This document shows, in pieces, positions 5,874 to 29,723 of a stretch of DNA of 64,000 nt (the first letter of the stretch is position 1; every line of letters starts with the position of its first letter). Below the pieces are notes generated by a model. The model was not told the origin of the DNA and ran no database searches. It saw only the letters and a list, made by a program, of their open reading frames with translations. The DNA comes from Plantactinospora sp. BC1 (GTDB lineage: Bacteria > Actinomycetota > Actinomycetes > Mycobacteriales > Micromonosporaceae). The stretch covers positions 2,976,001-3,040,000 of the forward strand of contig NZ_CP028158.1 of the NCBI RefSeq assembly GCF_003030345.1. Reading direction: 5' to 3'. Position numbers and translations under genes: made by a program.

Positions 5874-5899
5874 TCCCTGACCTGAAAGCCTCGACTGAC

Positions 5900-14993: not shown

Positions 14994-15373
14994 CGGATCT
15001 CACCTCCGCGTCGGTCCTCATGAAGCGGGTCCCTGGGGAGAGACCCGAGACCATGCAGGGTCTCTCGCAGGACAAGCAGCAGGCGCTGACAGACGCCGTG
15101 ACCTGCGGTGTGAGCGATAGTCGGGGGTCAGTTCGGGGGTCCGGCTGAAGACTGACCCCAACCCGGACGTCAACACGGACGCCCGGACCGAGGTCAAGCC
15201 GGAATCTGTCACCGCCATCGGCCGTAGGCCGAAGCGGCGGAATGAAGAAGTGGGAGAACAACGCAACTCCTTGGTTGAAGGTCTGGACGGCGCCGACAGC
15301 CACGACGTCGTCGTGAGATCGCCGGCCGTACTTCCCGCACGGCCTGATCGAGGCGTGCGGCAGGTAGCCGGCA

Positions 15374-15398
15374 CCCTGCCGGGTCACGCCCGGCAGGG
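15374..15398 (-). terminator. Perfect 10-bp stem hairpin
   Basis: CCCTGCCGGG pairs perfectly with CCCGGCAGGG around a five-base loop. It lies 9 nt past the stop of the small minus-strand membrane frame, the place expected of its terminator. No T-run follows, as is common in high-GC actinomycetes. Confidence 0.55.
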
Positions 15399-15407
15399 CG
15401 GGCCGCG

Positions 15408-15548
15408 CTATCGGCGGCCGAGAAGTGTCACTGTGGAGGTGTCAACGAACAGGTAGGCCGGGATACCGGCCAGCATGAAGCGGATAAGGGCAGCAGCGGT
15501 CAGCACGACCGCGAGCAGCACAGTCGCGCAGACGAAGATGGACAGCAA
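15408..15548 (-). CDS. Small membrane protein, possibly frameshifted
   Basis: A 46-aa frame with one clear transmembrane stretch (FVCATVLLAVVLTAAALI) and a polar tail ending TLLGRR. The only in-frame start is TTG at 15548 with no good ribosome site. A GTG in another frame just upstream would fuse naturally if one base were shifted, suggesting a frameshift or an upstream start I cannot see. A hairpin follows the stop. It may be a small membrane gene of the integrative element. Confidence 0.3.
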   Translation of the reverse strand: MLSIFVCATVLLAVVLTAAALIRFMLAGIPAYLFVDTSTVTLLGRR

Positions 15549-16122
15549 TGGACAGGGCGGTTGACGGTCGCACCGGTGCCCGAATTCGTCACAGCCCGTG
15601 ACAGGAGACTCCTACAGCCGCGCAACATCGCGGCGGCAGGGTAGGGCTTCGGTTCAACCCGCCGGGAGAAGATCCTTCATCTCAGCCCTCCTGTAGCTCG
15701 CTCGACACCCGTCGCCGACCTGCTCGCACGGACTCAGCACGAAAGCAAGCGCTCCCACGGAGCGCCCACCCATCGACCTCTGAAGCCCGGCGATCAAGGC
15801 CGTCGCACGGGGAACGTCCATCCAGTACCTCTCGGCCGAGCTTCCTTGTCAAGGCCATTCAGCTGCTGCGATACAGCTCACGAGCCTCGTCGGCAACGTT
15901 GATCGTGCAGGGCCGCATCGATCCGTCCGGGCGAGTACGCGATGGTCCGACGGCGGTGCCCAGAATCCGGGGAAACCAGATGTGCCAACTATTCCGCGAT
16001 GCTCCGTCCGCTTGTCCTTCCGTCGTCGCGGGACGCCCGGCCATCTCGTCTGCGAACCGGTAACCTTCGCGCACCCCAGACCCCCGTAGATCACTCTGCG
16101 TGTCCAGGGGCACAATCGAGAT

Positions 16123-16779
16123 GTGATCGCGAGCGTGTTCTTCGATGTGGGCGAGACGATCGTCGACGAGTCCCGGGAGTACGGGACCTGGGCGGACTGG
16201 CTCGGTGTACCGCGCCACACCTTCTCCGCTGTCTTCGGGGCGGTGATCGCTCGGGGCCTCGACTACCGGGAGACGTTCCAGGTGTTCCGGCCAGGGTTCG
16301 ACCTGGCCGTGGAGCGGGAGCGCCGCACGGCGGCGGGACAGCCGGAGTCGTTCACCGAGGAGGACCTGTACCCGGATGCCCGACCCTGCCTCGCCGCGCT
16401 GGGCGAGTCGGGGCTGCGCGTCGGCCTGGCCGGCAACCAGACCGCACGAGCGGAGACGATCCTGCGTGCCCTGGGCCTGCCGGTCGACGTCATCGGCACC
16501 TCGGACGGGTGGGGTGTGGAGAAGCCGTCCGCTGCGTTCTTCGAACGGGTGGTGGCCGAGGCGGGCTGCCCGGCGGGTCAGGTGCTCTACGTCGGCGACC
16601 GGTTGGACAACGACATCCGACCGGCGCAGGAGGCGGGGATCGCGACCGCCCTGGTCCGTCGCGGCCCGTGGGGGTACATCCTCGACGACAGGGCGGTCAG
16701 CGACCGCTGCCTGTTCCAGCTCGACTCGCTGGCCGAGCTGCCCGACCTCGTTCGCAAGCACAATGAGTCGGCCGGCTAA
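16123..16779 (+). CDS. HAD-superfamily hydrolase
   Basis: A 218-aa haloacid-dehalogenase-like hydrolase. Motif I is FFDVGETI (the first Asp is the nucleophile; the second Asp of the usual DxD is replaced by Gly, and DVGET is common in this subfamily). The motif II-like GNQT, motif III Lys in VEKPS, and motif IV GDRLDND are all present. The insertion after motif I fits a C1 cap. It is probably a small-molecule phosphatase, perhaps acting on a nucleotide or sugar phosphate. The start is GTG. It converges on the XRE regulator gene with a 4-nt overlap of the stops and may belong functionally to the downstream biosynthetic cluster (inference). Confidence 0.85.
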   Translation: MIASVFFDVGETIVDESREYGTWADWLGVPRHTFSAVFGAVIARGLDYRETFQVFRPGFDLAVERERRTAAGQPESFTEEDLYPDARPCLAALGESGLRVGLAGNQTARAETILRALGLPVDVIGTSDGWGVEKPSAAFFERVVAEAGCPAGQVLYVGDRLDNDIRPAQEAGIATALVRRGPWGYILDDRAVSDRCLFQLDSLAELPDLVRKHNESAG

Positions 16780-18110
16780 CTACCCGGAAGAGCCGCTCGA
16801 CCGACGGTGAGAGCGGCGATGCGTTCGTCAAGCTGAGCACCGTGTCGGCTGTCGCCGAGTAGTGGCCGGACGGCGCGGACCCGGTCGAGCCCGGTGCCGT
16901 ACCAGTCGATGTGCAGGGCGTCGACAGCCTGGTTGAGGTAGTCGGCGGCCCGGTCGCCATCACTGCCGTTAGCGGTGGCGAGGTCGGCAAGGACGACGCT
17001 GCGCTGCTTCGCGCTGGTGCCGGTGAGCCCGACGAGCGCCTGGTCGAGTTGGCCGGCGGCTTCGCGGTGGTCGCCGCTGGCGAGAGCGGCGTAGCCGGCG
17101 AAGGAGTGCAGGCGGCCGTTGTCGTAGAAGTCGAGCCATTCGGGCGGGGTGGAGTCGCCGTCGATCGCCCCTGCCGCCAGATCGATGTGACGACGGCTCG
17201 CGGCTGCCGCTCCGACCCGCGCCTCCACCTCCGAGGCGACGCAGTGCAGCCAGGAGCGGACCATGGGGCTGACACCGTGCCAGGTGTGTTGAATGGCTGC
17301 GTCGATCAGCGGGCGAGCGCTGGCTGGGTCGTGACCGAAGGCGGGAATGAAGGCGGTGTGGCCGAGAACAGCCACAGCCAGGGCGTGGTCGCCGGCCTCG
17401 CGGGTGGCGGCGAGGGCGACGTCGTAGCAGCGTTCGGCGATGGCGGGTTGGCTCAGATCGAAGAAGGCGAGCCGGGCGGTGAGCAGAGCGGATTCCGCGA
17501 GGGCGCTGGCGAGGCTGGCGCGGCTGGTGCCGGTGGCGGCGCGTAGGAGCCCGATGCCGAGCTGGGTGTGGGCGTAGGCGGCCTCGTAGAGCGGCCGGGC
17601 CGGGCTGGTCCAGTACAGCTCCCGCTGGCAGCGCACGATCTGCCGGTACGCGTCCGGGTCGACAGTCTTGCCGTCGGCGTGCGCGGCGTCGGGGTCGAGG
17701 GACAGCAGTGGCGCGACCAGGGGCAGCATGCTGGCGCCGACGAGCGCGCGTAGTACGGACGCGCGATCCCAACCGTTGCCGTTGTCGTCTCCGGTGAGCA
17801 TGTCCCACAACCTCCTGAACTCGTGCAGTGTTTCCGCCTCCGGGCGTACGGCCAGCTCGTCGGGAGTGAGCAGGCCGAGGTCGCTCGCTGGCTTGCCGAG
17901 GATCGCGACGAGGTGTTTGCGGTAGCGCGGGTCCGGCCACCGCTCGCCGATCTCCCAGCGTCGGACAGTGTTGGCGTTCAGCCCAGTATCGGTCTCGCCG
18001 GCGCGGCTCATCTCACTACGGATTCGTTCAGTGATCTCCTCGTACGACCACCCGCGTTGGAGTCTCTCCCACGCGAGCCGCCGGTTCGGGGGATAGCGCC
18101 GCTCCGCCAT
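16776..18110 (-). CDS. XRE-family HTH regulator with TPR-like helical domain
   Basis: A 444-aa regulator. Residues about 8-75 are a helix-turn-helix (SYEEITERIRSEM ... NANTVRRWEIGERWPDPRYR), followed by a long Ala-rich helical region of tetratricopeptide type, a common build for actinomycete cluster-linked regulators. It is divergent from the operon starting at 18315, and the 204-bp gap between them probably holds both promoters. It likely controls that operon and its own gene; the ligand is unknown. The ATG at 18110 has a GAGGTG ribosome site upstream. Confidence 0.8.
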   Translation of the reverse strand: MAERRYPPNRRLAWERLQRGWSYEEITERIRSEMSRAGETDTGLNANTVRRWEIGERWPDPRYRKHLVAILGKPASDLGLLTPDELAVRPEAETLHEFRRLWDMLTGDDNGNGWDRASVLRALVGASMLPLVAPLLSLDPDAAHADGKTVDPDAYRQIVRCQRELYWTSPARPLYEAAYAHTQLGIGLLRAATGTSRASLASALAESALLTARLAFFDLSQPAIAERCYDVALAATREAGDHALAVAVLGHTAFIPAFGHDPASARPLIDAAIQHTWHGVSPMVRSWLHCVASEVEARVGAAAASRRHIDLAAGAIDGDSTPPEWLDFYDNGRLHSFAGYAALASGDHREAAGQLDQALVGLTGTSAKQRSVVLADLATANGSDGDRAADYLNQAVDALHIDWYGTGLDRVRAVRPLLGDSRHGAQLDERIAALTVGRAALPGS

Positions 18111-18314
18111 CGGACACCTCCGGGCATCGCCAATCGACGTAGATCACGCTAGCCAGTCCGGCTACGGGTCGTCACTACCTGGTTGCGATTGGACGGGCAG
18201 TGGACGGTACCGGCCATTGGCCCAAGACGGTTCGCTATTGCCGAGCCTCGAACGGTGCCGCCCGACGGCGGCTACGCGGCCAGCCCGAATCGCCTACAGC
18301 TCAGGGGGTAGATC
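18111..18314. promoter_or_regulatory. Divergent intergenic control region
   Basis: This gap lies between the divergently transcribed XRE/TPR regulator and the first small gene of the epimerase-hydroxymethylase operon. By position it should contain both promoters and the regulator's operator. I see no clear palindrome or strong -35/-10 pair by eye. AGGGGG just before the GTG at 18315 is a usable ribosome site. Confidence 0.4.
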
Positions 18315-18596
18315 GTGGACACGTTGATCAACCTCGACAAGACGATCTCGGGCCCGCGCCTGGTTGCGGCGGTGATTCGTGGCTCCAATGTCGTGAGGCT
18401 GTCTCCTCGCCTGCGTACTGCCATGAGGGCTGCGCGGGCGGGTGACCGGCGGGTTGCTCCCACCCGCAGCCTTGCGGTGGCGGACCCGCTGTCCCCCCGG
18501 CGGGTCCGCCACATCGGCCGCGAGCGGATCGCCTCCGGCACGCACCGCCGGCACACCCCCTACCACCGAGCCGGCATGCAGGCGGCACGGCGATGA
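18315..18596 (+). CDS. Small basic protein at head of biosynthetic operon
   Basis: A 93-aa protein, strongly basic in its C-terminal half (many Arg and His), starting at GTG with AGGGGG seven bases upstream. No family is recognised. Its stop overlaps the ATG of the next small gene (ATGA), so both are likely translated, and they form the start of the operon divergent from the XRE/TPR regulator. The basic tail could bind nucleic acid; a peptide precursor role is also possible. No function is assigned. Confidence 0.5.
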   Translation: MDTLINLDKTISGPRLVAAVIRGSNVVRLSPRLRTAMRAARAGDRRVAPTRSLAVADPLSPRRVRHIGRERIASGTHRRHTPYHRAGMQAARR

Positions 18597-18769
18597 CCGT
18601 CTACCTCTCCCGCAACGCCGCCATGACGGCTGCCAACGGCGCCGACGGACAGGAACGCAGGAGCCGCCGGACCGCGATCGGTCGGGCATGCGCTCCGACG
18701 GTCGACCCTCCCCTGCTCACCCACGCCTGGCGGCTGATCTTCGAACGCAGCACACGAAAGGAGGCGTGA
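18593..18769 (+). CDS. Small basic protein, translationally coupled
   Basis: A 58-aa protein (MTVYLSRNAA ... ERSTRKEA). Its ATG overlaps the stop of the preceding small gene, and its 3' end contains AAAGGAGG, which is the ribosome site of the epimerase gene starting 7 nt later. This arrangement strongly suggests it is translated as part of the operon. The residue pattern LLTHAWRLIFE near the C-terminus could form a helix. No family is recognised. Confidence 0.55.
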   Translation: MTVYLSRNAAMTAANGADGQERRSRRTAIGRACAPTVDPPLLTHAWRLIFERSTRKEA

Positions 18770-18775
18770 GGATCC

Positions 18776-19744
18776 ATGTTCCGAGTCCTGGTGACCGGGG
18801 CGGCTGGGTTCATCGGCTCGCATCTGGTCGACGCGCTACTAGCCCGAGGCTTGACGGTGATCGGCCTGGACCGTCGCCGGCTCGGCGAGCACGCCCTCGC
18901 GGACGAGAACCTCGCCGCCGCAATCTCCAACCCGTCGTTCACGCCATGCCACCTGGACCTGGCCACCGATCAACTCGATGACGTGGTGAAGGGCTGTGAC
19001 ACCGTCTTCCACCTCGCCGCCCGGCCCGGCGTCCGTCAATCCTGGGGCAGCGACTTCCTCGACTACGCCCAGACCAACGTCCTCGGCACCCATCGACTCC
19101 TCGACACGTGCGTCCGGCAGGGCGTACGACGGCTGGTCTTCGCATCGTCGTCCAGCGTCTACGGCCCGACGAACCGGCCGAGTCGGGAGGGCGACCCGAC
19201 CTGTCCGATATCCCCGTACGGCGTGAGCAAGCTCGCCGCCGAACACCTCTGCCTGGCCTACGCCCGCCGTCCCGACAGCCAACTCAGCGTCGTCGCACTC
19301 CGCTACTTCACCGTGTACGGGCCTCGGCAGCGACCCGACATGGTGATCGGTCGGATTTTGTTCTCCGCATACACCGGTTTTCCGATGACCCTATTCGGCG
19401 ACGGCAGTCAGCACCGTGAGTTCACCTATATCAGCGACGTCGTCACCGCGACCATCGCCGCGGCTCATCTCGACGTCCGGGCCGCCGTCGTCAACGTCGG
19501 CGGCGGCGCGAGCGTGTCCATGCGGGGCGTCATCGACGAAGCGTCAGCGGTCACCGGCCGGCAGGTACCGATCAAGGTGGTACCCGCGCAGCCGGGCGAT
19601 GTTCCGGCGACCGCAGCCGACCTGACCCGCGCCGGCCGGCTGCTCGGCTACTGGCCCACCGTCGGCCTGCACGAGGGACTCGCCCGGCAGGCCGCCTGGC
19701 TGGTCGACCTGTCCCGCGACCGGCTCGCCACCTTCACCTCCTGA
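18776..19744 (+). CDS. NAD-dependent epimerase/dehydratase (nucleotide-sugar type)
   Basis: A 322-aa extended short-chain dehydrogenase. The N-terminal NAD-binding motif is GAAGFIGSH (residues 8-16). The catalytic SSSVYG segment and Tyr-x3-Lys (PYGVSKLAAE) follow at the usual spacing, and a substrate-loop PRQRPDMVIGRILF lies downstream. This is the UDP-glucose 4-epimerase/UDP-glucuronate decarboxylase-like group acting on nucleotide sugars in the cytoplasm. A strong AAAGGAGG ribosome site precedes the ATG. The gene is first of the enzyme set in the operon and may supply a sugar for the glycosyltransferase four genes on (inference). Confidence 0.9.
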   Translation: MFRVLVTGAAGFIGSHLVDALLARGLTVIGLDRRRLGEHALADENLAAAISNPSFTPCHLDLATDQLDDVVKGCDTVFHLAARPGVRQSWGSDFLDYAQTNVLGTHRLLDTCVRQGVRRLVFASSSSVYGPTNRPSREGDPTCPISPYGVSKLAAEHLCLAYARRPDSQLSVVALRYFTVYGPRQRPDMVIGRILFSAYTGFPMTLFGDGSQHREFTYISDVVTATIAAAHLDVRAAVVNVGGGASVSMRGVIDEASAVTGRQVPIKVVPAQPGDVPATAADLTRAGRLLGYWPTVGLHEGLARQAAWLVDLSRDRLATFTS

Positions 19745-19764
19745 ACCCCGCAACGGAGCCATTC

Positions 19765-20745
19765 ATGATCGTTCTTACCGCCGACTCGGCCAGCGAACTC
19801 TTCACCGCCGCCTGCCAGGCCGTACTACTCAACGGTCGCGCCGCATCCCCACGCGACCACGCCACCACCGAGGTCATCGGCGCCCACCTCTGCCTGACGA
19901 ATCCCCGACGACGCATCGTCCACGTACCACCAGCCCGCGTGATCAACCCGGCCTTCACCGTTGCCGAGGCGCTGTGGATCCTCTCCGGCTCCGACGACCC
20001 ATGGATCTTCGACTACAACGACAACCTCCGCCAGTACGCAGACGACGGCGTGCTCCGCGGCGCCTACGGCCCACGACTGCGCCGGTGGGGCGGCCGGATC
20101 GACCAGCTCGACGCCACGATCGACCAACTCGACGCCGTACGACGCCAACTGCACGCCGACCGGAACTCCCGGCGAGCGGTCATCCAGCTCTACGACCCGT
20201 CCCGCGACCACCGGGGATACCGCGACGTGCCCTGCACCCTCGGCTACCGCTTCTTCATCCGCCAGGGCCGGCTCGCAATGCACACCAGCATGCGCAGCCA
20301 GGACCTGTGGCTCGGCTTCCCCTACGACATCTTCACCACGACCTTGATTCACGAGTTGATGGCCGGCTGGCTCGGCGTCGACCTGGGCGAATACCACCAC
20401 CACGTCGACTCCCTGCACCTCTATGCCAACAACACCGAAGCGGCCGCCGCATGCCTGCACGGTCTGCCCGGCGACGCCGAACTGCCGCCGGTCACCGTGT
20501 CGTGGCCGGACCTGGACACCCTTCTCCAACGCGTGATCTCCGGCGCCACCGCCTCAACCGACGGGCCGACCTGGGACGCCTTCGGCCGGACCCTCAGCAG
20601 CTACCGATCCTGGAAGGCAGGCGACCGGGACCAGGCGCGGAAGCTGGCCGCCGCCACCCCCGACCCACTCGGCCACGCGCTCTCAAGCTGGTACGACCGC
20701 CTCGCCCCGACCGTCGCCACAGCCACGCAGGACGCACGAGGATGA
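19765..20745 (+). CDS. Thymidylate-synthase-fold (d)CMP hydroxymethylase-like enzyme
   Basis: A 326-aa thymidylate synthase homologue. Residues that align with E. coli ThyA: Glu68 (E58), Cys157 in DVPCTLG (catalytic C146), Arg177-Ser178-x-Asp180 in MRSQDLWLG (R166, S167, D169), and His218/Tyr220 in SLHLY (H207, Y209). The Asn that selects uracil in ThyA (N177, LPFN) is Asp188 here (GFPYD), the change known from T4 dCMP hydroxymethylase (Asp179) and linked to cytosine recognition. His147 of ThyA is Thr158. I therefore favour 5-hydroxymethylation of CMP or dCMP using methylene-tetrahydrofolate over thymidylate synthesis. Its stop overlaps the start of the carbamoyltransferase gene (ATGA). Confidence 0.85.
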   Translation: MIVLTADSASELFTAACQAVLLNGRAASPRDHATTEVIGAHLCLTNPRRRIVHVPPARVINPAFTVAEALWILSGSDDPWIFDYNDNLRQYADDGVLRGAYGPRLRRWGGRIDQLDATIDQLDAVRRQLHADRNSRRAVIQLYDPSRDHRGYRDVPCTLGYRFFIRQGRLAMHTSMRSQDLWLGFPYDIFTTTLIHELMAGWLGVDLGEYHHHVDSLHLYANNTEAAAACLHGLPGDAELPPVTVSWPDLDTLLQRVISGATASTDGPTWDAFGRTLSSYRSWKAGDRDQARKLAAATPDPLGHALSSWYDRLAPTVATATQDARG

Positions 20746-22478
20746 GGGCGCGACCGGACAGCCGCCACGCCGACGTCGTGCTGGGCCTGTGCGCGTACAC
20801 GCACGACTCGGCCGCCGCGCTCCTGGTCAACGGACACTTGATCGGCTTCGCCGAAGAGGAGCGACTCGACGGGGTCAAGCACAGCAAGGCATACCCAGCC
20901 AACGCCGTCGCCTGGCTTCTGGCCGAGGCTGGGCTGACCGCGGACCAGGTGACGACAGTCGCGTACAACTTCGACGGCCGCCGCTACCTGCCCGCTCTCG
21001 GTCAACTGCCCGCACATCTGGCCGCCTCCGTGACTCGCGCCCGGGCGGTGCCCCGTGCTCGCAGCTTCCTCACCGTCCGCCGCCGCTACCAGGCCAGGAT
21101 GCGGGACCTGTCCCGACGGTTCCCGCACGCCCGGCTCCGCCCGATACAGCACCACCGCGCGCACGCCCTCTACGCCTTCCTCTCCGCCGGGGTGGACGAC
21201 GCGGCCGTTCTGATCGTGGACAGCCTCGGCGAACTCCAGACCACCACCAGCTGGCACGCCGCACAGCACGACGCCCGACCCTTCCGACTCGCCCTGCACG
21301 ATGCGGTCGACGACCCCGCATCGCTCGGCTACGCCTACGGCGCCGTCACCGAGCACCTGGGCTGGCGTCGGGGTGACGAGGAAGGCACAGTGATGGCACT
21401 GGCCGCGCTCGGCAACCCGGAACGCTTCCACGACCTGATGAGCCGAGCGATCCGCCTCACCGAGAACGCCTTCACCCTCGACCCGACCCTGCTGCCGCTG
21501 CGGGTGCTCTCCAGCCGGTACGGCCGGATCACACCGGCGTTTGCCGCCGCCACCTGCCCGCCCCGCCTGCCGGGCGCACCGGTCGAACTCGTGCACGCCG
21601 ACCTGGCCGCCGCACTCCAGGAACGGACCGAGCAGGTGATGCTGCACCTGGCCCAGCGAGCCGCCCGGCTGACCGGGTCCGGCCTGCTCTGCCTCGGTGG
21701 CGGCGTGGCGATGAACTGCGTCGCCGCCGGACTCATCGCCCAGGCCGGCATCGTCGACGAGGTGCACGTACCGCCCGCGCCCGGAGACTCCGGCACCGCC
21801 ATCGGCGCGGCAGCAGCCGCCTGGCTCGACACCACCGGCCGGCCACCCACCGGCGTCGAACAGCGCTGCTACCTCGGCCCGGCGTACCCGAAGCTGACCC
21901 TGCACACCGAACCGCGCCCCGGCCTGGCCGCCGAACGCCTGGACGATCCGGTCCACCACCTTGCCCAGCGGCTCGCCAGTGGGGCGATCGTCGGGCTCTT
22001 CGCCGGCCCGCTGGAGGCCGGGCCACGCGCGCTGGGCAACCGGTCCATCCTCGCCTCACCCCTCTCACCCGGCGTCGTGGACCGGCTCAACGCCACCGTG
22101 AAGTTCCGCGAACCGTTCCGGCCGTTCGCCCCGGTCATCCTCGCTGACAAGGCGGCCGACTACGTCCAGCTGCGTCAACCCTCGCCGTACATGTCCATCG
22201 CAGCCCCCGTCACCGACCTGACCCGCACCTACCTACCCGCGATCGTCCACGCCAACGGCACCGCCCGGGCGCAGACCGTCACCCACGCACAGCATCCGTT
22301 CCTCGCCGACGTCCTGACCGCGTTCGGCCAGATCACCGGACACCCCGTCCTGATCAACACGTCGCTGAACGTCAAGGGCAAACCAATCTGCGGTACTCCG
22401 GACATGGCGCTCGCCTGCCTCACCGCAACCGGCCTGGACGCTCTGCTCATCGAAGGCTGGTGGGTGACCAAGTGCTGA
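20742..22478 (+). CDS. NodU/TobZ-family O-carbamoyltransferase
   Basis: A 578-aa carbamoyltransferase. The N-terminal Kae1-like domain opens with GLCAYTHDSAAALL and EEERLDGVKHSKAYP, hallmark segments of the NodU/CmcH/TobZ family. Further marks are HHRAHALYAF, LCLGGGVAMNC (a nucleotide-binding glycine loop near 300), and a C-terminal YrdC-like region with GPRALGNRSIL and INTSLNVKGKPI. Members use carbamoyl phosphate and ATP to place a carbamoyl group on a hydroxyl of a natural product. Directly following a hydroxymethylase, its acceptor could be the new 5-hydroxymethyl group or a sugar hydroxyl (inference). Start and stop both overlap neighbouring genes. Confidence 0.92.
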   Translation: MRARPDSRHADVVLGLCAYTHDSAAALLVNGHLIGFAEEERLDGVKHSKAYPANAVAWLLAEAGLTADQVTTVAYNFDGRRYLPALGQLPAHLAASVTRARAVPRARSFLTVRRRYQARMRDLSRRFPHARLRPIQHHRAHALYAFLSAGVDDAAVLIVDSLGELQTTTSWHAAQHDARPFRLALHDAVDDPASLGYAYGAVTEHLGWRRGDEEGTVMALAALGNPERFHDLMSRAIRLTENAFTLDPTLLPLRVLSSRYGRITPAFAAATCPPRLPGAPVELVHADLAAALQERTEQVMLHLAQRAARLTGSGLLCLGGGVAMNCVAAGLIAQAGIVDEVHVPPAPGDSGTAIGAAAAAWLDTTGRPPTGVEQRCYLGPAYPKLTLHTEPRPGLAAERLDDPVHHLAQRLASGAIVGLFAGPLEAGPRALGNRSILASPLSPGVVDRLNATVKFREPFRPFAPVILADKAADYVQLRQPSPYMSIAAPVTDLTRTYLPAIVHANGTARAQTVTHAQHPFLADVLTAFGQITGHPVLINTSLNVKGKPICGTPDMALACLTATGLDALLIEGWWVTKC

Positions 22479-23506
22479 TCGGCTACAGCTGCTGGGGATT
22501 CCTCGGCCCCGGCATCCTCGACACCCCCGACGGCGGACGCAGCCACCGCCGCACACTCATCGACGGCCTACGCCACACCGGCCACGAGATCCTGTTCCTC
22601 CAGCGCAACCGCGACCTGGACGAAGCCAGGAACGACCTCACCGAGCACTATCGGTGGAACATCGACCTGCCCGACATCGACGTCCTGTTCCTCGAATGGC
22701 GCTGGCCCATCCCCGGCCGCAACACCACCCCCTGCGGTCGGCCCGGCCACACCTGCGACCTACACCGGCAAGCCGAACTCCTCACCCACTACACCCACAA
22801 ACTCGGCATCCCGACGATCATCTGGGACAAGGACCGACAGCTCGACCCGCACGACCCACTCCGCCAGCTCAACCACGTCACGGTCTGCGAGCCCGCGCTG
22901 CACCCGAGCCCAGGGGCGGTGCCGCTGCTCTTCCCCGTCGCCGACGCTGCCATCGACACCGCCAGTCCCGCCGCACTCGCAGCCCACCCCCGGCCGACCT
23001 CACTCGTATACGTCGGCAACCAGTACGACCGCGACGACGCCTTCGACACCTTCTTCGCGCCCGCCGCCGCGCAGCTACCCCACCTGATCGCCGGCAAGTG
23101 GCCCGAGACCAACCGCTGGCCCGGCCTCAACTTCATCGACCGGGTCCCGTTCCCGCAGGTCACCGAGATCCACACCAACGCCCTCGCCACCGTGCTGCTA
23201 CTACCCGACCGCTACGCCCGTGTCGGCCAGATCACCCAACGAATCTTCGAAGCGATCCTCGCCGGCTGCGCCACACTCCTGCCCACCACCATCCGAAGCG
23301 CCGCCGGACTCGTACCGGCGAGCCTGCACGTCACCGACGCCACCGACGTACGGGACCGGGTCGGCTGGCTCGCCGAGATCGCCGGCACCAGCAACCACGC
23401 CGACCTGATCGCCGACTGCCTGCGCCGTCTCGCCCCGTTCCGGCTCTCCGCCCAACTCGACGTACTCAATCGTCTTCTGCACCGATCGGACCGGGTGCCG
23501 TCATGA
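22472..23506 (+). CDS. GT-B-type glycosyltransferase-like protein
   Basis: A protein of about 344 aa. The GTG at 22472 overlaps the carbamoyltransferase stop (GTGCTGA) and gives a compact N-terminal beta strand (LIGYSCWGFLGPGI); a GTG 12 nt upstream is also possible. The C-terminal half resembles the nucleotide-sugar-binding domain of GT-B enzymes of the CgeB/Glyco_trans_1_2 type (VYVGNQYDRDDAF ... QRIFEAILAGCATLLPT). A cysteine pair in TPCGRPGHTC (near 90) is unusual. It probably transfers a sugar to the product of the cluster; donor and acceptor cannot be read from sequence. Confidence 0.65.
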   Translation: MLIGYSCWGFLGPGILDTPDGGRSHRRTLIDGLRHTGHEILFLQRNRDLDEARNDLTEHYRWNIDLPDIDVLFLEWRWPIPGRNTTPCGRPGHTCDLHRQAELLTHYTHKLGIPTIIWDKDRQLDPHDPLRQLNHVTVCEPALHPSPGAVPLLFPVADAAIDTASPAALAAHPRPTSLVYVGNQYDRDDAFDTFFAPAAAQLPHLIAGKWPETNRWPGLNFIDRVPFPQVTEIHTNALATVLLLPDRYARVGQITQRIFEAILAGCATLLPTTIRSAAGLVPASLHVTDATDVRDRVGWLAEIAGTSNHADLIADCLRRLAPFRLSAQLDVLNRLLHRSDRVPS

Positions 23507-23557
23507 CCCGCCGTGTCCACCCGACCTCACCCCGTCCCGCCCCTACTCTGGAGGACC

Positions 23558-24079
23558 ATGGACAGGATCGCCATCATCGGCTGCGGCGGCAGCGGCAAAT
23601 CCACCGTCGCCCGGCAATTGGCCCACATCCTCGACGCGCCGCTGACCCACCTCGACTCGATCTACTACGACGAGCAGTGGAACCCGCTGCCCCAGGACGA
23701 GTTCGCTGCCCAGCAGGAGAAACTCGTGGCCAGCGAGCGGTGGGTCATCGAGGGCAACTACGCCGGCACCCTACCCATCCGGCTGGCCGCCGCCGACACC
23801 GTGATCTTCCTCGACCTACCCGCCCTGACCTGCCTCTGGGGCATCGCCCAACGACACTGGCGCTACCGAGGCGGCCAGCACCAGGCCGACGGCGTATACG
23901 ACCGAATCACCTGGAACTTCGTCCGCTACATCCTCGGCTACCGACGCACCATGCGGCCCCGGGTCGAGACCCTCATCTGGGAACACGGGCCGCACGTCCG
24001 ACTGATCTCACTGCGCAACCGCCGGCAAGCCAACCGACTGCTCGACCGGCTACGACAACAGGCCCAGCCGATGACGTAA
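23558..24079 (+). CDS. P-loop small-molecule kinase (adenylate-kinase/FlaR-like)
   Basis: A 173-aa kinase. Walker A is GCGGSGKST (residues 8-16), followed by the LDSIYYDEQW substrate loop, WVIEGNY, and the lid-like RHWRYRG. This pattern matches the 'DNA topology modulation'/FlaR-like AAA kinases related to adenylate kinase, many of uncharacterised substrate. I chose the ATG at 23558 because GGAGG precedes it at 5 nt and Walker A then falls at the usual position. A TACTCT element lies just before the ribosome site and may be an internal promoter. In a nucleotide-modifying cluster, an NMP-kinase role is attractive but unproven. Confidence 0.8.
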   Translation: MDRIAIIGCGGSGKSTVARQLAHILDAPLTHLDSIYYDEQWNPLPQDEFAAQQEKLVASERWVIEGNYAGTLPIRLAAADTVIFLDLPALTCLWGIAQRHWRYRGGQHQADGVYDRITWNFVRYILGYRRTMRPRVETLIWEHGPHVRLISLRNRRQANRLLDRLRQQAQPMT

Positions 24080-24103
24080 CCGGGCCGGGACGGGAGGCGA
24101 CCG

Positions 24104-24919
24104 ATGTCGGCTAACCCGTTCCTCGACCCCGCGCTGGTCCACGGCGACCTGTACTGCACCGACGACCGGCTCGCAGAACGCACCCGCGCGCTACGCCAAG
24201 CCAAGATCGCTGGGCGAAACGTCGCCCAAGTCGTCGTCGACCTACTCGCCCAGCGGACCTCGCCCGGTGCGGTCGTGCTCGACATCGGCTGCGGGCGAGG
24301 CACCACCACGCTCCGGATCGCTGCCAGTCTCCGCCCTCGACGGCTTATCGCGGTCGACGCCTCGGCCGCACTGCTGGACACCGTCCGTACCCGGCTGGCC
24401 CAGGCCGACGAGGTCGGCTCGGCGGTCTGCGCCGACTTCCACCACCTACCGTTGCCCGATTCGATGGCCGACGCGGCGGTAGCCGCGTTCTGTCTCTATC
24501 ACTCGACCACGCCGGCCGCCGGAGTCGCGGAGATCGCCCGCTGCCTCCGTCCCGGGGGTGTCGCCGTCCTGGTGACCAAGTCGCTGGACAGTTACGCCGA
24601 GCTCGATCATCTCGTCCAAGCAGCGAACCTCGACCCCGACGCTGTCAGCCAGCCGAGCCTCTACGAGAGCTTCCACAGCGGCAACCTGGTCAACATCGCC
24701 GCCACTCATCTCGCCGTGCTCGATGTCCTGCACGAGCAGCACGTCTTCGAGTTCGCGGACGCCACGCACCTCGCCCGATACCTCGCCACGACCCCGAAAT
24801 ACCGAATCCACCCTGTGGGCGGGCCAGCCGACCTGGCCGCGATCCTCCGGAAACGGCTGCCCGTACCGCCGTATCCGACCCGGTCCACCGTCAGCTACGC
24901 CCTGGCGGCACGGCCATGA
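24104..24919 (+). CDS. Class I SAM-dependent methyltransferase
   Basis: A 271-aa methyltransferase. Motif I is VLDIGCGRGTTT, motif II the acidic IAVDAS, and the post-motif LRPGGVAVLVTKS is typical of UbiE/MenG-like small-molecule methyltransferases (Methyltransf_11/25). GGAGG lies 7 nt before the ATG. The stop overlaps the next gene's ATG. It probably O-, N- or C-methylates the cluster product; the acceptor is unknown. Confidence 0.85.
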   Translation: MSANPFLDPALVHGDLYCTDDRLAERTRALRQAKIAGRNVAQVVVDLLAQRTSPGAVVLDIGCGRGTTTLRIAASLRPRRLIAVDASAALLDTVRTRLAQADEVGSAVCADFHHLPLPDSMADAAVAAFCLYHSTTPAAGVAEIARCLRPGGVAVLVTKSLDSYAELDHLVQAANLDPDAVSQPSLYESFHSGNLVNIAATHLAVLDVLHEQHVFEFADATHLARYLATTPKYRIHPVGGPADLAAILRKRLPVPPYPTRSTVSYALAARP

Positions 24920-25653
24920 CCAGCAACCTCTTCCTCAAGCGGTATGACGACCCACAACGTTGCTCGGCAGCGGCGGCCCATTACGCCTGGCTCACGTCGT
25001 TGGAGTCCGGGGTCCGCCTCCCGCACCTGGTCACACGGACGAGTCGTCACCTGGCCTTCGAGCGACTGCCGGGCCGGACACCCGAGGTGCCCGACCTGCC
25101 TCGCGTGGCGTCCGCGCTCGGTCGGCTGCACGACGGCGCGTACCGGAGAGAGCTGCACTCCGCACGCCTCGATCAACCGCACGCCACGCCGACCGGGCTG
25201 GTGCTTTCCGACTTCACCGGGCCGCGTCGGGAGGCGCTGCATCGGGCCGCCCGTGTCACCGGCGTAGACCTAGCCGCGCTGGACGCTCTTCTCGACCGGA
25301 CTGGCCGGCCTGCGGCCTTCTACAAGGACCCGAACGTTCGCAACTACCTCGTTGAGGGAGAGAGCGTCGCCGTCGTCGACTTCGACGATCTCACCCTCGC
25401 CCCCTTCGGCTACGACCTGGCCGGCCTGCTAGTTACCGCCTCGATGACATTCGGCCGACTCCGCCAGCAGACCATCATGAACTGCGTCGATGCCTACCGA
25501 GCCGCAATCACGCCGAACGTCTGCGACCTTGACGAATTGCGGCAGTACGCCGAACTGCACCACCTCTTGACCCTCCGTTACCTCGGCACCAACGGATACC
25601 GGCACCCGTGGCCCACCGTCCGCCCGTGGCCCGATGCCTTCACGCCGACCTGA
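24916..25653 (+). CDS. Aminoglycoside-phosphotransferase-fold kinase (1)
   Basis: A 245-aa protein of the APH/choline-kinase fold. The catalytic loop is KDPNVRNYL (Asp and two Asn in the positions of HxDxxxxN), and the metal-binding DFG equivalent is VVDFDD. The first catalytic-loop His is replaced by Lys, and the N-lobe is short, so it is a divergent small kinase. It starts with an ATGA overlap on the methyltransferase gene. It may phosphorylate a sugar, nucleoside or amino group in the pathway, or serve in self-protection (inference). Confidence 0.75.
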   Translation: MTSNLFLKRYDDPQRCSAAAAHYAWLTSLESGVRLPHLVTRTSRHLAFERLPGRTPEVPDLPRVASALGRLHDGAYRRELHSARLDQPHATPTGLVLSDFTGPRREALHRAARVTGVDLAALDALLDRTGRPAAFYKDPNVRNYLVEGESVAVVDFDDLTLAPFGYDLAGLLVTASMTFGRLRQQTIMNCVDAYRAAITPNVCDLDELRQYAELHHLLTLRYLGTNGYRHPWPTVRPWPDAFTPT

Positions 25654-25675
25654 CCGCCCTGAAGGAGCCCGGCCG

Positions 25676-26326
25676 ATGGCCCCAACCACCGAACTCGTCA
25701 TCGCCCGCCACGGCGAAGCCGCCTGCAACGTCGCCGGAATCGTCGGCGGCGAACGCGGCTGCACCGGACTGACCGACCGGGGGCGCCACCAGGTCACACG
25801 GCTCGCTGCCCGGCTGGCTGCCGAGCACGCAACCCGCCCGTATGCGGTCTTCTACTCCACCCCCCGACTCCGGGTAGTCCAGACCGCCGAGATCATCACG
25901 AAGGCTCTCCACCTACCGCCCACCGTTGAGGCGAAACTTCGCGGGCCTCACCACGGCGACGCCGATGGCCGCCCGTGGGCGGACGTCAAGACCACCTTTC
26001 AGGGCCCGCCCCAACACGCCCCCGACGCCCCATACGCCGACGGGTCCGAAACGTGGAACCAATACCTCGACCGGTCAACCAAAGCCCTACAGGAGATCCT
26101 CGCCCGGCACGAGGGCCAGCGAATCCTCATCGCCGCCCACGGCGAGACCATCGAGGCCGCCAACAACCTACTCTTCACACTCCCCCAGGACGCCTGCCTG
26201 CGGCTCGGCTTCGTCACCGACCACGCCTCGGTCACCCGGTGGCAGCGACCGACCAACCGGTTCGGCCGCACCATTTGGCAACTCGTCGCCCACAACGACA
26301 CCCGCCACCTCGAACCCGGGCGATGA
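25676..26326 (+). CDS. Histidine phosphatase family protein
   Basis: A 216-aa histidine phosphatase (phosphoglycerate-mutase-like). The catalytic RHGEAACN is at residues 10-17, a second Arg is in YSTPRLRVVQT, and the second His is in LIAAHGETIEA. The N-terminal ATG at 25676 has GAAGGAG upstream and places RHG at the normal position; a start 42 nt earlier is less likely. Members include alpha-ribazole phosphatase and broad phosphatases. Together with kinases on both sides it suggests stepwise phosphorylation and dephosphorylation of an intermediate. Confidence 0.85.
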   Translation: MAPTTELVIARHGEAACNVAGIVGGERGCTGLTDRGRHQVTRLAARLAAEHATRPYAVFYSTPRLRVVQTAEIITKALHLPPTVEAKLRGPHHGDADGRPWADVKTTFQGPPQHAPDAPYADGSETWNQYLDRSTKALQEILARHEGQRILIAAHGETIEAANNLLFTLPQDACLRLGFVTDHASVTRWQRPTNRFGRTIWQLVAHNDTRHLEPGR

Positions 26327-27093
26327 GCAGCACCGACCTCCTCCAACTCTGCCGGCGTCTTCTCGACACCGACGCGGTGCCCGTGACGTGGCACCCGGGC
26401 CATGCAGGTACTCAGTTGCTCCGCGCCTCGACCGCCGAGCACGGGGAGGTGATAGTCAAACCACACCGCAGCCAAGAACGGCACACGCAGGAGGTACATG
26501 CCTACCGGGCCTGGGTTCTGGCCCTCGGTGACCAAGCCCCCCGCCTACTCGCGACAGCCGACGATCCGCCCGCGATCATCATCACGGTCGTGCCAGGTGT
26601 ACCGCTGAACCAGCGAAGACTTTGCCCCGAGGCCGAGCAGGATGCATACCGCCAAGCCGGGCGGCTACTCAAGACGCTTCACGCCGCCGGACCGCCGAGG
26701 CTGGAGCCGGATTGGACAGCCTGGCTCGCCGATCGATCCGAGTATTGGATTCACCGAGCCGGAGACCGGATAACGCCTAGCGACCGGGCCGAGGTACGCG
26801 CCCACATGCGAGCCCTCCAAGACCTCGCCCCGCTACCGGCCCTGCCGTGCCACCTCGACTTCATGCCCCGCAACATGATCTACGGTAACGACGGCATTGT
26901 TCGCCTGATCGACTTCGAGCACAGCCGGTACGACCTGCCCGCCCGCAACCTCGTACGCCTCGCCACCCGCGCCTGGCCCCTCCGCCCCGACCTACGCGAC
27001 ACCTTCCTCGACGAGTACGGCCACCTCACCGCAACGGACCACGAGGTGCTGGAACACTGTGCCTACCTCGACGCTATAACCTGCACTAGATAG
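26323..27093 (+). CDS. Aminoglycoside-phosphotransferase-fold kinase (2)
   Basis: A 256-aa APH-fold kinase with a full catalytic loop CHLDFMPRNMI and the metal-binding LIDFEHS, more canonical than the first kinase of the operon. The Lys of the N-lobe is probably in VIVKPHR. It overlaps the histidine phosphatase stop by ATGA and ends the operon; a short inverted repeat follows at 27121. Two APH-fold enzymes in one small cluster suggest one for biosynthesis and one for protection, but nothing in the sequence decides this. Confidence 0.8.
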   Translation: MSSTDLLQLCRRLLDTDAVPVTWHPGHAGTQLLRASTAEHGEVIVKPHRSQERHTQEVHAYRAWVLALGDQAPRLLATADDPPAIIITVVPGVPLNQRRLCPEAEQDAYRQAGRLLKTLHAAGPPRLEPDWTAWLADRSEYWIHRAGDRITPSDRAEVRAHMRALQDLAPLPALPCHLDFMPRNMIYGNDGIVRLIDFEHSRYDLPARNLVRLATRAWPLRPDLRDTFLDEYGHLTATDHEVLEHCAYLDAITCTR

Positions 27094-27120
27094 AGTATCG
27101 CCGATAGGGCATCCGGCTCC

Positions 27121-27143
27121 ACTTCGCCAAACCCTAGCGAAGT
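27121..27143 (+). terminator. Weak hairpin after the operon
   Basis: ACTTCGC pairs with GCGAAGT across nine bases. It lies 28 nt after the last gene of the biosynthetic operon and before the convergent hypothetical gene. The stem is short and lacks a T-run, so termination is only plausible. Confidence 0.35.
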
Positions 27144-27229
27144 GAGCAGCACTCAACTCGCGGCAGCCGCGCCCTCGGCTCTTTCGGTCTGCCGATAGGC
27201 ACAGCTGTTCTGCAACGCCAGGCCTCTGG

Positions 27230-27931
27230 TTAGCCTGCGTTTTCCGGGTCAGTGATGAAGGTTAAAAACTCGGTACCGAGCGGCGTGGTCGCTACTCCCC
27301 ACAACCCCCCTTGGGTCATAATTCCCGACAGCGATTGACCGACTAGACCGGCGTTGGTTAGTGCTGCCGCGTACCGGTCTATCAAGTCCTGACGACCACC
27401 GAGCTCGGGCATGCCTGCCTCAATGATCGCCTTCTTCGACCCCATGGTGATGTTCGGTCGTGCGACTTGGTGGCGGTCGAACCAGCCTGGCGGATCAGAG
27501 AGCAGCTTCAACAGCCGCACATGCGTCGGGGTGAACTGATCGATCATGCCGAAGAAAAGCTGTTGAGTGTCGCCATCCGGAGCATCGGGAAGCACCGCGT
27601 TAACAACCGCGTTACGGAGTAGTGCCAGTTTCTCGGTTCGCGAGGTCCGGTCGGCGATCTGTGAGGCTGTAGTTAGCGCATCCATAAATGCATCGTTGCT
27701 CATGAGTTGTTCGAAGTCGCCCAACTTGTCGCCGAGACGGTGCACCTTCTCGGCGAGACCATTGAGCCACCGGCTACGCCGATCCGCGAGGCGCCGGCCG
27801 GCGGCTTCAGTGAATGCGATCTGCAGAGGCCCGCCGACGCCCGGCACGGCCGATATTGCCATCTCGGTGACTCTCGTCAGCCCCTGTCGACGGTCTGTGT
27901 CCTCAGGATACGGCTCCACGCACAGCATCAT
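27230..27931 (-). CDS. Conserved-looking hypothetical protein
   Basis: A 233-aa soluble protein with no signal peptide or membrane segment. The N-terminal half is helical (AISAVPGVGGPLQIAFTEAA then a long amphipathic helix). The C-terminal half (LLKLLSDPPGWFDRHQ ... LSGIMTQGGLWG) resembles unnamed actinomycete and phage-neighbourhood proteins, but I cannot name a family. It is convergent with the biosynthetic operon and lies beside the DUF4238 gene in the same orientation. These two genes fill the space before tRNA-Lys and may be island cargo. Confidence 0.6.
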   Translation of the reverse strand: MMLCVEPYPEDTDRRQGLTRVTEMAISAVPGVGGPLQIAFTEAAGRRLADRRSRWLNGLAEKVHRLGDKLGDFEQLMSNDAFMDALTTASQIADRTSRTEKLALLRNAVVNAVLPDAPDGDTQQLFFGMIDQFTPTHVRLLKLLSDPPGWFDRHQVARPNITMGSKKAIIEAGMPELGGRQDLIDRYAAALTNAGLVGQSLSGIMTQGGLWGVATTPLGTEFLTFITDPENAG

Positions 27932-27998
27932 GCCTTACGGATAACAACTACGGCCTCCTGCGTTTGGACCAGTCCATATGTCATTTGGTCCGCTCCCG

Positions 27999-28997
27999 CT
28001 ACTTGTACGACCACATGTTCGGCGCGGGGAGGTGAAGCCCCTGGTCGCAGAGGGCGACATCCGGGCCAACCGCAAATGCCTCGGACTGCTCTACACAGCA
28101 GCCAGGAGGGTCCACGTGTTCGCCCTGGGGCGTCCACTGGGAGCAATGAAGCCGCACCTGTGGCCGTCGCCGGAACTTCTTGGCCCGAGGCAGCCGGTCA
28201 CGCTGCTCTCCGCTCGAGAAGATCATGCGCTCCCGGCCCTGCTCCACGCCGTCGCGCACGATGCCTACCAGCTTGCCGGTCGCTTCACGTATGACGGCTT
28301 TCTCGCCCAGGAGGTCGTTACTGAGAGCAATGACGCGGTGTGGACTAACCGGCCAGATAACGTATGGAGTGGCGACGAGGCTTGGGCGCAAGTTGTGTCG
28401 GTACGGGACCACCACCGGAGCATCACATGTCATGAACCGGCCCTTGACGTCGTGCCACACCTCGATCTGCCGAGTCGTAAGCACATCGGCGGCGTCCCAC
28501 ATTGCCGAGAACAACAACTCGGTGTGGATACCTGCTGCCGAGTACGGATTCTCGGGATCGTTCATCTCCTTGAACTCGTGCGGATTCTGCGCGACGAGCC
28601 ATGCGTTATGCTGTTGACGAAGTCTTCGCTGTTGAGGCGTGCGCATGCGCTGGATAGCCATCGAGACTCCGAGCGCGATTAGATCATCGAACTCCAGCTC
28701 GTCCGGGTCTTGGAGCTGGCTGAACAAGGTCTGCACCCGTCGTAGCTCGGCGTCCGCGACGCCAAAAAGCAGCTCCACCCGATTGTGGGCAGCACCGTCG
28801 GGGCCGACGACGCGGTAGAAGTTCTCCTCGACGCAAATGTCAGCAAGACCGAGTGACCTCACCACACCTGTGACTGTATCGAGAGCCCGCACCCGTTTGC
28901 CATCAAATGACCACTCTCGAAGGTACGCCCTCGGGACGTAGTGGTGTCGGCGGCTGACTGGGTCCTCCGCCGTCTGCAGGCGCAGCAACTTGTCCAT
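27999..28997 (-). CDS. DUF4238 domain protein
   Basis: A protein of about 332 aa from the ATG at 28997. It carries the DUF4238 signature RRHHYVPRAYLREW near the N-terminus, then a long helical domain with metal-ligand-like residues (MTCDAPVVVP). The family is widespread in bacteria and often found in accessory regions, but its function is unknown. The frame continues upstream to 29261, but that extension is not protein-like and the signature should lie near the start. It is adjacent to tRNA-Lys. Confidence 0.7.
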   Translation of the reverse strand: MDKLLRLQTAEDPVSRRHHYVPRAYLREWSFDGKRVRALDTVTGVVRSLGLADICVEENFYRVVGPDGAAHNRVELLFGVADAELRRVQTLFSQLQDPDELEFDDLIALGVSMAIQRMRTPQQRRLRQQHNAWLVAQNPHEFKEMNDPENPYSAAGIHTELLFSAMWDAADVLTTRQIEVWHDVKGRFMTCDAPVVVPYRHNLRPSLVATPYVIWPVSPHRVIALSNDLLGEKAVIREATGKLVGIVRDGVEQGRERMIFSSGEQRDRLPRAKKFRRRPQVRLHCSQWTPQGEHVDPPGCCVEQSEAFAVGPDVALCDQGLHLPAPNMWSYK

Positions 28998-29459
28998 GTA
29001 GTCACGTGCACGTCCGCGCAGGGACCGGCCCCCCGCGGTGAGGGGCACCTGCCCCCAGGGGTTCCGAACTTGCTTGACGATTGCCCAATCGCCGAGGCCG
29101 GGAGGAGCCGAGTCAATTGCCACGTCGCCAGGGTAATCAGTTGCACCGACAGGTCGGTCGACCCATGGCGTGGATGAAACCGTAGCTATCAATGGATCAA
29201 CGGGGGTGGGCACGCCGCAGCGGGATATGCAGTCTGTCGCTCTCAGTCGCCATCTGCACATCTACCTGCGATGACACGGCGCCAATGCCCGCCCCCCGAC
29301 CCTCCCCCAGCCCAGGAGATGTCCACTGGCATAGCACCTGTCCCTGCAGACGCGGAGCGGTCCGACCGCTCCCGATCACCCGCCGAGCACCCATCCACCG
29401 ACACGAACATGAAGAAGGCCCCGATCCGGCGTGAAGTGCCAGGTCAGGGCCTTGATCGT
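28998..29459. other. Gap upstream of DUF4238 gene, next to tRNA-Lys
   Basis: No convincing gene. The minus-strand DUF4238 frame runs through part of it without protein character. Its right end holds the tRNA-Lys terminator. Because integrative elements commonly insert at tRNA 3' ends, and the tRNA's 3' end faces this stretch, an att core could lie here; no repeat copy is visible to me. Confidence 0.4.
29415..29453 (-). terminator. tRNA-Lys terminator hairpin
   Basis: Read on the minus strand just behind the tRNA, AAGGCCCTGACCTGGC pairs with GCCGGATCGGGGCCTT. This 16-bp stem has one mismatch and two G-T wobbles around a seven-base loop, and a pyrimidine-rich tail follows. It is a clear intrinsic-type terminator. 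Confidence 0.75.
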
Positions 29460-29535
29460 TGGTGCGCCGCCAGGGACTCGAACCCCGAACCCGCGGATTA
29501 AGAGTCCGCTGCTCTGCCAGTTGAGCTAGCGGCGC
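29460..29535 (-). tRNA. tRNA-Lys (anticodon CTT)
   Basis: Minus-strand cloverleaf with acceptor GCGCCGC/GCGGCGC, anticodon stem GCGGA/TCCGC, loop CTCTTAA with anticodon CTT, and T-loop GTTCGAG. The CCA end is encoded in the genome. Its 3' end faces the accessory region to the left. Confidence 0.95.
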
Positions 29536-29723
29536 TCGCTGACAACGGGAGAAACCCTAACACGGCTGCGGGAGGAGCTTCCAACCAGTTCCCCTTCCTG
29601 CGACGAGGAGCCGGCCCGAGCCGGCAAAACGGGCATTCCTCCCATAGGTTTGGCGTCCGGGGTCAAAACTGTGGCCCCGATAGTGCACGATGTCTCCCGG
29701 GATTCGAGTGGACCGAGGTGGGG

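Follow-up and report, generated by a model that had tools for sequence, protein, structure and literature searches.

A mobile nine-gene operon of Plantactinospora sp. BC1 that may make a decorated 5-hydroxymethyl-deoxycytidine

According to PMC5175136, the natural-product hydroxymethylases MilA and BcmA prefer ribonucleotides, and the dCMP hydroxymethylase considered there is a phage enzyme. In PMC8670742, a carbamoyltransferase encoded next to a thymidylate synthase on a phage-type contig modifies 5-hydroxymethylcytosine (5hmC) in DNA and 5hmdCTP (the MetaGPA system). We examined a stretch of 64,000 nucleotides, here called the window (positions 2976001-3040000 of the single-contig 8.33-Mb genome of Plantactinospora sp. 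BC1), in which nine packed, co-directional genes occupy 18776-27093 of the + strand. They encode, in order, a nucleotide-sugar epimerase (EPI), a thymidylate-synthase-superfamily enzyme (TS), an O-carbamoyltransferase (CARB), a glycosyltransferase (GT), a P-loop nucleotide-kinase-like protein (KIN), a methyltransferase (MT), an APH-fold kinase (APH1), a histidine phosphatase (HP) and a second APH-fold kinase (APH2).

Like the MilA- and bacimethrin-type pathways, this operon joins a TS-superfamily hydroxymethylase bearing the cytosine-specific Asp to decorating enzymes. It differs from them in an Arg/Ser residue pair, a separate TS clade and the lack of an N-glycosidase among its nine genes, and it adds a carbamoyltransferase, two APH kinases and a UDP-glucuronate-type epimerase. 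An Asp-type TS beside a NodU/TobZ-type carbamoyltransferase is shared with the MetaGPA system (PMC8670742); that system belongs to a phage, whereas the operon lies on a bacterial mobile element and adds GT, epimerase, kinases and MT. The T4 pair of gp42 and beta-glucosyltransferase (BGT) is similar in its dCMP-type TS residues, in a GT near the TS and in BGT being the best fold match of GT. However, the GT of the window is acidic, its sequence kinship to BGT is unproven, and the recognised carrier genes are an integrase, Replication-relaxation and DUF2637. The moenomycin trio of MoeE5, a glycosyltransferase and a carbamoyltransferase contains the best solved relative of EPI, but its acceptor is prenyl phosphoglycerate, where the operon would probably use a pyrimidine nucleotide.

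On balance we lean to the view that the operon is a mobile cassette of soil actinobacteria making a low-molecular-weight, decorated 5-hydroxymethyl-deoxycytidine nucleotide or nucleoside; its gene set, conservation as a unit, place on a mobile element and active-site residues are read from the sequence. If this is true, a mobile bacterial operon ties phage-style cytosine modification to the making of small molecules by bacteria, a modified deoxycytidine that has not been described is to be expected, and enzyme tests could draw on the nine genes, on both TS types and on the GT family common to them. The product could be antibiotic-like or part of an anti-virus defence.

An initial annotation of this DNA had named the same enzymes in one co-directional operon with repeated ATGA overlaps, ending with the epimerase, and had put it forward as a candidate new pathway. 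All nine genes are present on the + strand and three junctions are exact ATGA overlaps (TS/CARB, MT/APH1 and, from coordinates, HP/APH2 at 26323-26326); the epimerase is the first gene and not the last. At two more junctions the genes share 19 and 20 bases, and at the other three they stand 6, 20 and 24 bases apart, so that no gap or overlap exceeds 24 bases; the start codon of HP, and hence its junction, is uncertain. No description of the operon was found in the literature searched, which mostly left subscription papers outside, and the accessible parts of PMC11706625, on nucleases carried by such elements, and of PMC10853773 do not describe it.

The search for the gene set in other genomes that the annotation had called for gave 30 distinct loci including the window (loci carry L numbers), after the duplicates L075, L076 and L078-L080, judged by contig and position, were dropped. 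All nine genes are present in 20 of the 30 (19 of the 29 others plus the window). MT alone was not found in four otherwise complete loci (L004, L013, L077, L095), L005, L008 and L009 end at contig ends, L094 keeps only TS, CARB and part of GT, and L013 is frameshifted. EPI is the last gene in L010, L011, L013 and L095 and lies ahead of TS in the other loci where it was found. Because the same gene order recurs in homologous loci, the arrangement is far beyond chance, and the nine-gene set is inherited as a unit. Twelve operon loci come from named genomes belonging to Micromonospora, Pseudonocardia, Nocardiopsis, Streptomyces, Nonomuraea and Streptacidiphilus. Within the host family 354 genomes were searched, counting that of the window; TS was matched at E <=1e-40 in 40 of them and window-type TS (E <1e-130) in 23, the remaining matches being at 2e-54 or weaker. 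High-scoring CARB sits in the same 23 genomes, in 22 at 913 bits or more and in one as a fragment of 565 bits, with other above-threshold matches reaching at most 430 bits. In a phylum sample, 4 of 396 genomes matched TS at E 1e-40; two of these hold the window type, one being the window's own. It was also noted that in two Nocardiopsis loci (L009:8113-8967 and L012:5707-6564) GT and KIN are separated by an additional radical-SAM gene, with a Pfam match for L009 and copies that are 99% identical.

We then considered the substrate of TS. According to PMC5175136, Asp186 is common to cytosine-using enzymes, Lys133 and Ala176 are conserved in MilA and BcmA, and the A176S/K133R change switches the preference of MilA from CMP to dCMP. 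The corresponding key residues of TS are R136, C157, S178 and D188. The initial annotation had described a cytosine-type hydroxymethylase overlapping CARB and followed by GT, and the three genes are indeed packed and conserved together. TS keeps Cys, the cytosine Asp, His and Tyr in 30 of 30 distinct loci, and Glu in all 29 that can be read at its place (residue counts leave out the frameshifted row L013_10001). The place of MilA Lys133 is Arg in all 30 and that of Ala176 is Ser in 27, and the MilA Lys/Ala pair was not found. Among the controls, MilA, L096 and L098 have Lys/Ala, while T4 gp42 has Arg/Ser/Asp, and TS has the Cys, Asp, Arg and Ser of the gp42 dCMP hydroxymethylase. Because TS combines the cytosine Asp with Arg/Ser as in the T4 enzyme, and does so without Lys/Ala, its substrate is probably dCMP. 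The position equivalent to E. coli His147, which according to PMC8670742 differs in modified phage contigs, is Thr in TS, as in MilA and gp42. The active-site Trp is Leu in TS; loss of this Trp fits water access, which is a weak argument given that gp42 keeps it. A housekeeping thymidylate synthase was considered and rejected, since the place taken by Asn in uracil enzymes holds the cytosine Asp in TS, and ThyX is encoded in the genome. No other PF00303 protein is encoded, and with ThyX present TS is probably unneeded for dTMP.

In the TS tree, 29 window-type rows form one group (support 99/98) apart from MilA, L096 and L098, with some long branches outside this group unsure. The TS of L096 adjoins a nucleoside-deoxyribosyltransferase domain, with a phosphomethylpyrimidine-kinase domain and TenA near, and that of L098 adjoins a LOG-type gene. 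Scans with Pfam and NCBIfam recognised no base-releasing N-glycosidase among the nine genes. The neighbours in L096 and L098 therefore suggest that CMP-type TS there goes with likely base release, which is absent from the window operon. These observations bear on whether the operon is instead a nucleoside-antibiotic cluster along mildiomycin, polyoxin or bacimethrin lines, in which CMP or UMP would be hydroxymethylated, glycosylated and carbamoylated and the APH kinases would protect the host. Epimerases, glycosyltransferases, methyltransferases and carbamoyltransferases are typical of such clusters, APH-fold kinases often give self-protection, and among PDB entries TS matches MilA best. Against this stand Arg/Ser in place of Lys/Ala, the position of the TS clade, the missing N-glycosidase (in L096 and L098 TS adjoins a deoxyribosyltransferase or LOG-type gene), the absence of any transporter among the nine genes in the Pfam scan, the patchy spread and the mobile carrier. 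A nucleoside antibiotic is thus possible, if unlikely. Of the likeness to nucleoside-antibiotic pathways drawn by the initial annotation, the cytosine hydroxymethylation stands, whereas the ribonucleotide analogy probably does not (Arg/Ser pointing to dCMP, and no N-glycosidase); its remark that the signature genes of mildiomycin are lacking was borne out by the nine genes, none of which was recognised as base-releasing.

The predicted structure of GT (AlphaFold, mean pLDDT 87.2) has T4 BGT as its best Foldseek PDB match (E 3.6e-9, TM 0.60), with other GT-B enzymes scoring nearly the same. By sequence the likeness to BGT is weak and unstable (profile E 0.035; hhalign 26%, and 0.1% in a second run that gave a format warning). 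GT is acidic, with a median isoelectric point (pI) of 6.2 (n = 11) compared to 9.05 for the basic BGT. We also examined 22 GT loci outside the window type, 13 picked by GT alone and nine with TS already known. TS adjoins GT in 11 of the 13 and in 20 of all 22, the exceptions being L120, which stops at a contig end, and L128, which shows no TS; neither CARB nor EPI was seen in any of the 22. These loci form a second cassette, with a nucleoside-diphosphate-kinase domain protein in 20, an exonuclease-domain protein in 21 and, in 20, a protein of 435 aa whose cysteine motif looks radical-SAM-like (recognised by eye, with no Pfam match). Its TS groups with MilA in the 10 loci placed in the tree, and has Lys/Gly in both loci checked (L102, L103); L103 also has homologues of the carrier's DUF2637 and Replication-relaxation. 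That one GT family pairs with two different cytidylate hydroxymethylases suggests that GT recognises the hydroxymethylcytosine unit, and GT probably acts on the TS product. The GT profile was matched in 53 of the 354 family genomes, some by fragments alone; only fragments were seen in G400, G492, G493, G542, G689, G714 and G739, as expected of decaying mobile cargo.

The sugar donor and the carbamoyl acceptor were considered from EPI and CARB. The best PDB matches of the EPI profile are MoeE5 (372 bits) and 6zl6 (333 bits), the next different entry scoring 218 bits, and we take both to be UDP-glucuronate 4-epimerases. EPI itself looks like an enzyme of this kind, and because these two are its closest matches, a galacturonate donor is likely. 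Both CARB domains are complete (PF02543 2-345 of 346, PF16861 1-170 of 170). CARB is closest to GdmN, then to the novobiocin enzyme and then to TobZ, a ranking that does not tell the acceptor, and it is encoded next to an Asp-type TS, as is the MetaGPA 5hmC carbamoyltransferase. In moenomycin the carbamoyl is placed on a uronic-acid sugar. If GT uses the CH2OH group, CARB must use another hydroxyl, such as one on the sugar, and we lean slightly to a sugar hydroxyl because GT-TS pairs occur without CARB. The overlapping translation of TS and CARB speaks instead for carbamoylation of CH2OH. Since GT is linked to TS in 20 loci in which no CARB was seen, carbamoylation at CH2OH may be preceded, or replaced, by glycosylation. 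Among phages, a pattern search for rather close relatives confirmed no CARB relative on viral contigs, and the phage carbamoyltransferases listed are 26-30% identical to CARB where at least 70% of the query was matched. In cyanophages Sf-CH3 and S-RIM44 (H121-H123) the carbamoyltransferase match touches a gene annotated as thymidylate synthase; this is possibly a 5-carbamoyloxymethylcytosine gene pair.

The phage-like features raise the question of DNA hypermodification, in which KIN would phosphorylate 5-hydroxymethyl-dCMP, DNA would take it up, and GT and CARB would decorate it there as in T4 and in the phages with 5-carbamoyloxymethylcytosine. The gp42-like residues of TS, BGT as top fold match of GT, and the TS-adjacent carbamoyltransferase acting on 5hmC DNA and 5hmdCTP (PMC8670742) are in line with this, as are matches of TS, EPI and CARB to the phage families phrog_5131, phrog_540 and phrog_1601 and the basic KIN and CARB (median pI 10.1 and 8.8). 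However, GT is acidic where T4 BGT is basic and its likeness to BGT is weak, a dCTP-destroying enzyme, polymerase or DNA-binding domain was not recognised among the nine proteins, the two APH kinases, HP and MT are left unexplained, and no viral CARB relative was confirmed in the pattern search. We consider hypermodification improbable and less likely than a nucleoside antibiotic. Ordinary prophage DNA-modification genes were likewise not favoured, as the phage carbamoyltransferases are only distantly alike, and a prophage origin is further disfavoured by the recognised carrier genes (integrase, Replication-relaxation and DUF2637).

In the favoured small-molecule pathway, for which the reactions, their order and the product are all predicted, TS would convert dCMP to 5-hydroxymethyl-dCMP, and decoration would proceed at the nucleotide or nucleoside level. 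GT would put a sugar, probably a uronic acid from EPI, on the hydroxymethylcytosine unit, and CARB would add a carbamoyl either to one of the sugar's hydroxyls or directly to CH2OH. MT, where present, would methylate, HP would take off a phosphate, and phosphorylation of intermediates or product would fall to KIN, APH1 and APH2. Several points weigh against this pathway. The closest solved structure to TS by sequence is MilA (best PDB match, E 2.1e-32), three loci (L010, L094, L095) have Gly at the Ala176 place, and Arg/Ser is what the TS alignment commonly shows, a sign that the MilA change is missing and not that anything special was gained. In L099, placed next to the MilA-like rows in the tree, the residues are Arg/Ala, and the pair is thus not always coupled. 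The choice of dCMP over CMP turns on two residues, in a clade without a characterised member, and that TS hydroxymethylates rather than methylates is something we infer. GT and CARB would exclude each other if both used CH2OH, the basic pI of KIN and CARB could mean nucleic-acid binding, and L007 and L012 show neither HP nor APH2 though some sequence follows.

The placement of the operon on a mobile element was then assessed. Perfect 57-bp direct repeats, made of the tRNA-Lys 3' half and the bases following it, lie at G000:C1:2967551-2967607 and 3005448-3005504; the left copy is outside the window, and ARAGORN finds no tRNA there. From the positions of the two repeats, they bound an element of 37,954 bp that carries the operon as cargo. 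It has the direct attachment (att) repeats at a tRNA and the tyrosine integrase expected of an integrative element, along with a DUF2637 gene, and its G+C inside the window is 0.670 compared to 0.724 right of the repeat. A tRNA scan of the 29 other operon loci, in which most stretches were bounded at 20 kb or by contig ends, found tRNA-Lys(CTT) within reach in five (L074, L082-L085). The window's chromosomal neighbours beyond tRNA-Lys are shared in L074, L082, L083 and L085, and the same tRNA-Lys site has therefore been used repeatedly. Other tRNAs near the operon are tRNA-Lys(TTT) in L090 and tRNA-Asn and tRNA-Met in L004. Replication-relaxation homologues are near the operon in several other loci and, with the element boundaries and the reused tRNA site, indicate that the cassette is mobile cargo. 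Among 85 of 91 listed flank open reading frames (ORFs) from 14 loci, L,D-transpeptidase-type domains were matched most often (7 and 6 of 85) and proved to be chromosomal neighbours of the tRNA-Lys site; they are followed by regulators (5), NUDIX (4), HAD (4) and Replication-relaxation (4).

Because the element also holds defence-type genes and a thymidylate synthase domain has an anti-phage precedent, an intracellular role is possible. The decorated deoxycytidine or its phosphate might act on phage DNA synthesis within the cell, with phosphatases and kinases switching it off and on. The element has a type III modification gene (825 bits) with a ResIII-domain gene beside it; a PDC-S48 candidate (560 bits) and a protein weakly matching ZacB (55 bits) lie further to the left. 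In other loci, too, some of the flanking genes are matched by defence models. PMC13092281 reports the recent validation of a thymidylate synthase domain as part of an anti-phage system, with dNMP kinase among the figure labels. On the other side, PADLOC matched one of the ten proteins scanned, MT (to mad2 with 64 bits along a portion of its length, and to models of type II/III methyltransferases), the defence matches among flank ORFs are mostly single ones, nine enzymes are many for a defence system, and no sensor or effector was recognised. Such an anti-phage metabolite seems quite unlikely to us. Taken more broadly, a pathway on transmissible elements, alongside restriction-modification and further defence genes, that makes a glycosylated, carbamoylated 5-hydroxymethyl-deoxycytidine nucleotide as an intracellular anti-phage compound, or else for bacterial DNA hypermodification, is unlikely; if true, bacteria would be borrowing the chemistry that phages use to shield their own DNA. 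The element part at window 4383-10650 holds an AAA-domain protein besides the type III modification and ResIII-domain genes. The PDC-S48 defence-candidate protein, at L139:7018-8250 left of the window, has an exonuclease-like N-terminus.

Coordinates of the operon, its neighbours and the features compared with it (window positions unless a locus is named)
Feature	Position	Strand	Evidence or remark
EPI: NDP-sugar epimerase (SDR), probably UDP-glucuronate 4-epimerase	18776-19744	+	PF01370 E 8.6e-59
TS: thymidylate-synthase-superfamily cytidylate hydroxymethylase, predicted dCMP-type	19765-20745	+	PF00303 E 1.1e-26
CARB: NodU/TobZ/GdmN-type O-carbamoyltransferase	20742-22478	+	PF16861 E 1e-59, PF02543 E 2.9e-36
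GT: GT-B glycosyltransferase (predicted fold)	22460-23506	+	weak PF13524, E 0.0076, below family cut-off
KIN: P-loop nucleotide-kinase-like protein	23513-24079	+	P-loop conserved; NCBIfam PRK08118 157 bits, below cut-off 215
MT: class I S-adenosylmethionine (SAM) methyltransferase, probably small-molecule type	24104-24919	+	PF08241 E 2.2e-19
APH1: APH-fold kinase	24916-25653	+	PF01636 E 1.2e-11
HP: histidine phosphatase	25634-26326	+	PF00300 E 1.9e-32; RHG and later H conserved
APH2: APH-fold kinase	26323-27093	+	PF01636 E 1.9e-20
Small ORF, 93 aa, GTG start	18315-18593	+	EPI preceded by a similar sequence in several loci
Small ORF, 58 aa	18593-18769	+	EPI preceded by a similar sequence in several loci
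NsdA-family XRE/TPR regulator, divergent from operon	16776-18110	-	NCBIfam NF053720 188 bits, cut-off 75
HAD hydrolase, adjoins regulator in several loci	16123-16779	+	PF00702 E 2.3e-14
Tyrosine integrase of carrier element	10905-12380	-	PF00589 E 4.8e-17
Replication-relaxation protein of carrier element	14109-14993	-	PF13814 E 6.2e-54
attR, right 57-bp repeat, reaching into intact tRNA-Lys(CTT) 29460-29535	29448-29504	-	
Second cassette (GT, MilA-like TS, nucleoside-diphosphate-kinase, radical-SAM-like, RNase_T-type exonuclease)	L102, L103, L116-L135; e.g. L103:8689-13811		

Motif residues are conserved in the alignments of EPI, KIN, MT, APH1, HP and APH2. The predicted model of APH1 has a mean pLDDT of 92.2, and the Foldseek matches listed for it are APH-fold kinases. 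The divergent NsdA-family XRE/TPR protein is likely the regulator of the operon. Promoter and terminator sites in 18000-28000 were rarer than in shuffles, and an Rfam scan of 15000-30000 matched the tRNA alone.

TS-type genes were also noted on plasmids. Similar operons with TS-type enzymes are found on the Geobacillus plasmid pGeo12a (L014) and the Streptococcus salivarius plasmid pSaLI10 (L018), together with genes for a phosphotransferase, AAA ATPase, QueA-like, PqqD-type and CYTH proteins and an ABC transporter. Other plasmid TS genes lie near ImmA/IrrE-type genes (L016, L017, L019) or nucleotide-kinase-domain genes (L015, L019), and the TS of L015 is located among TIR-domain genes.

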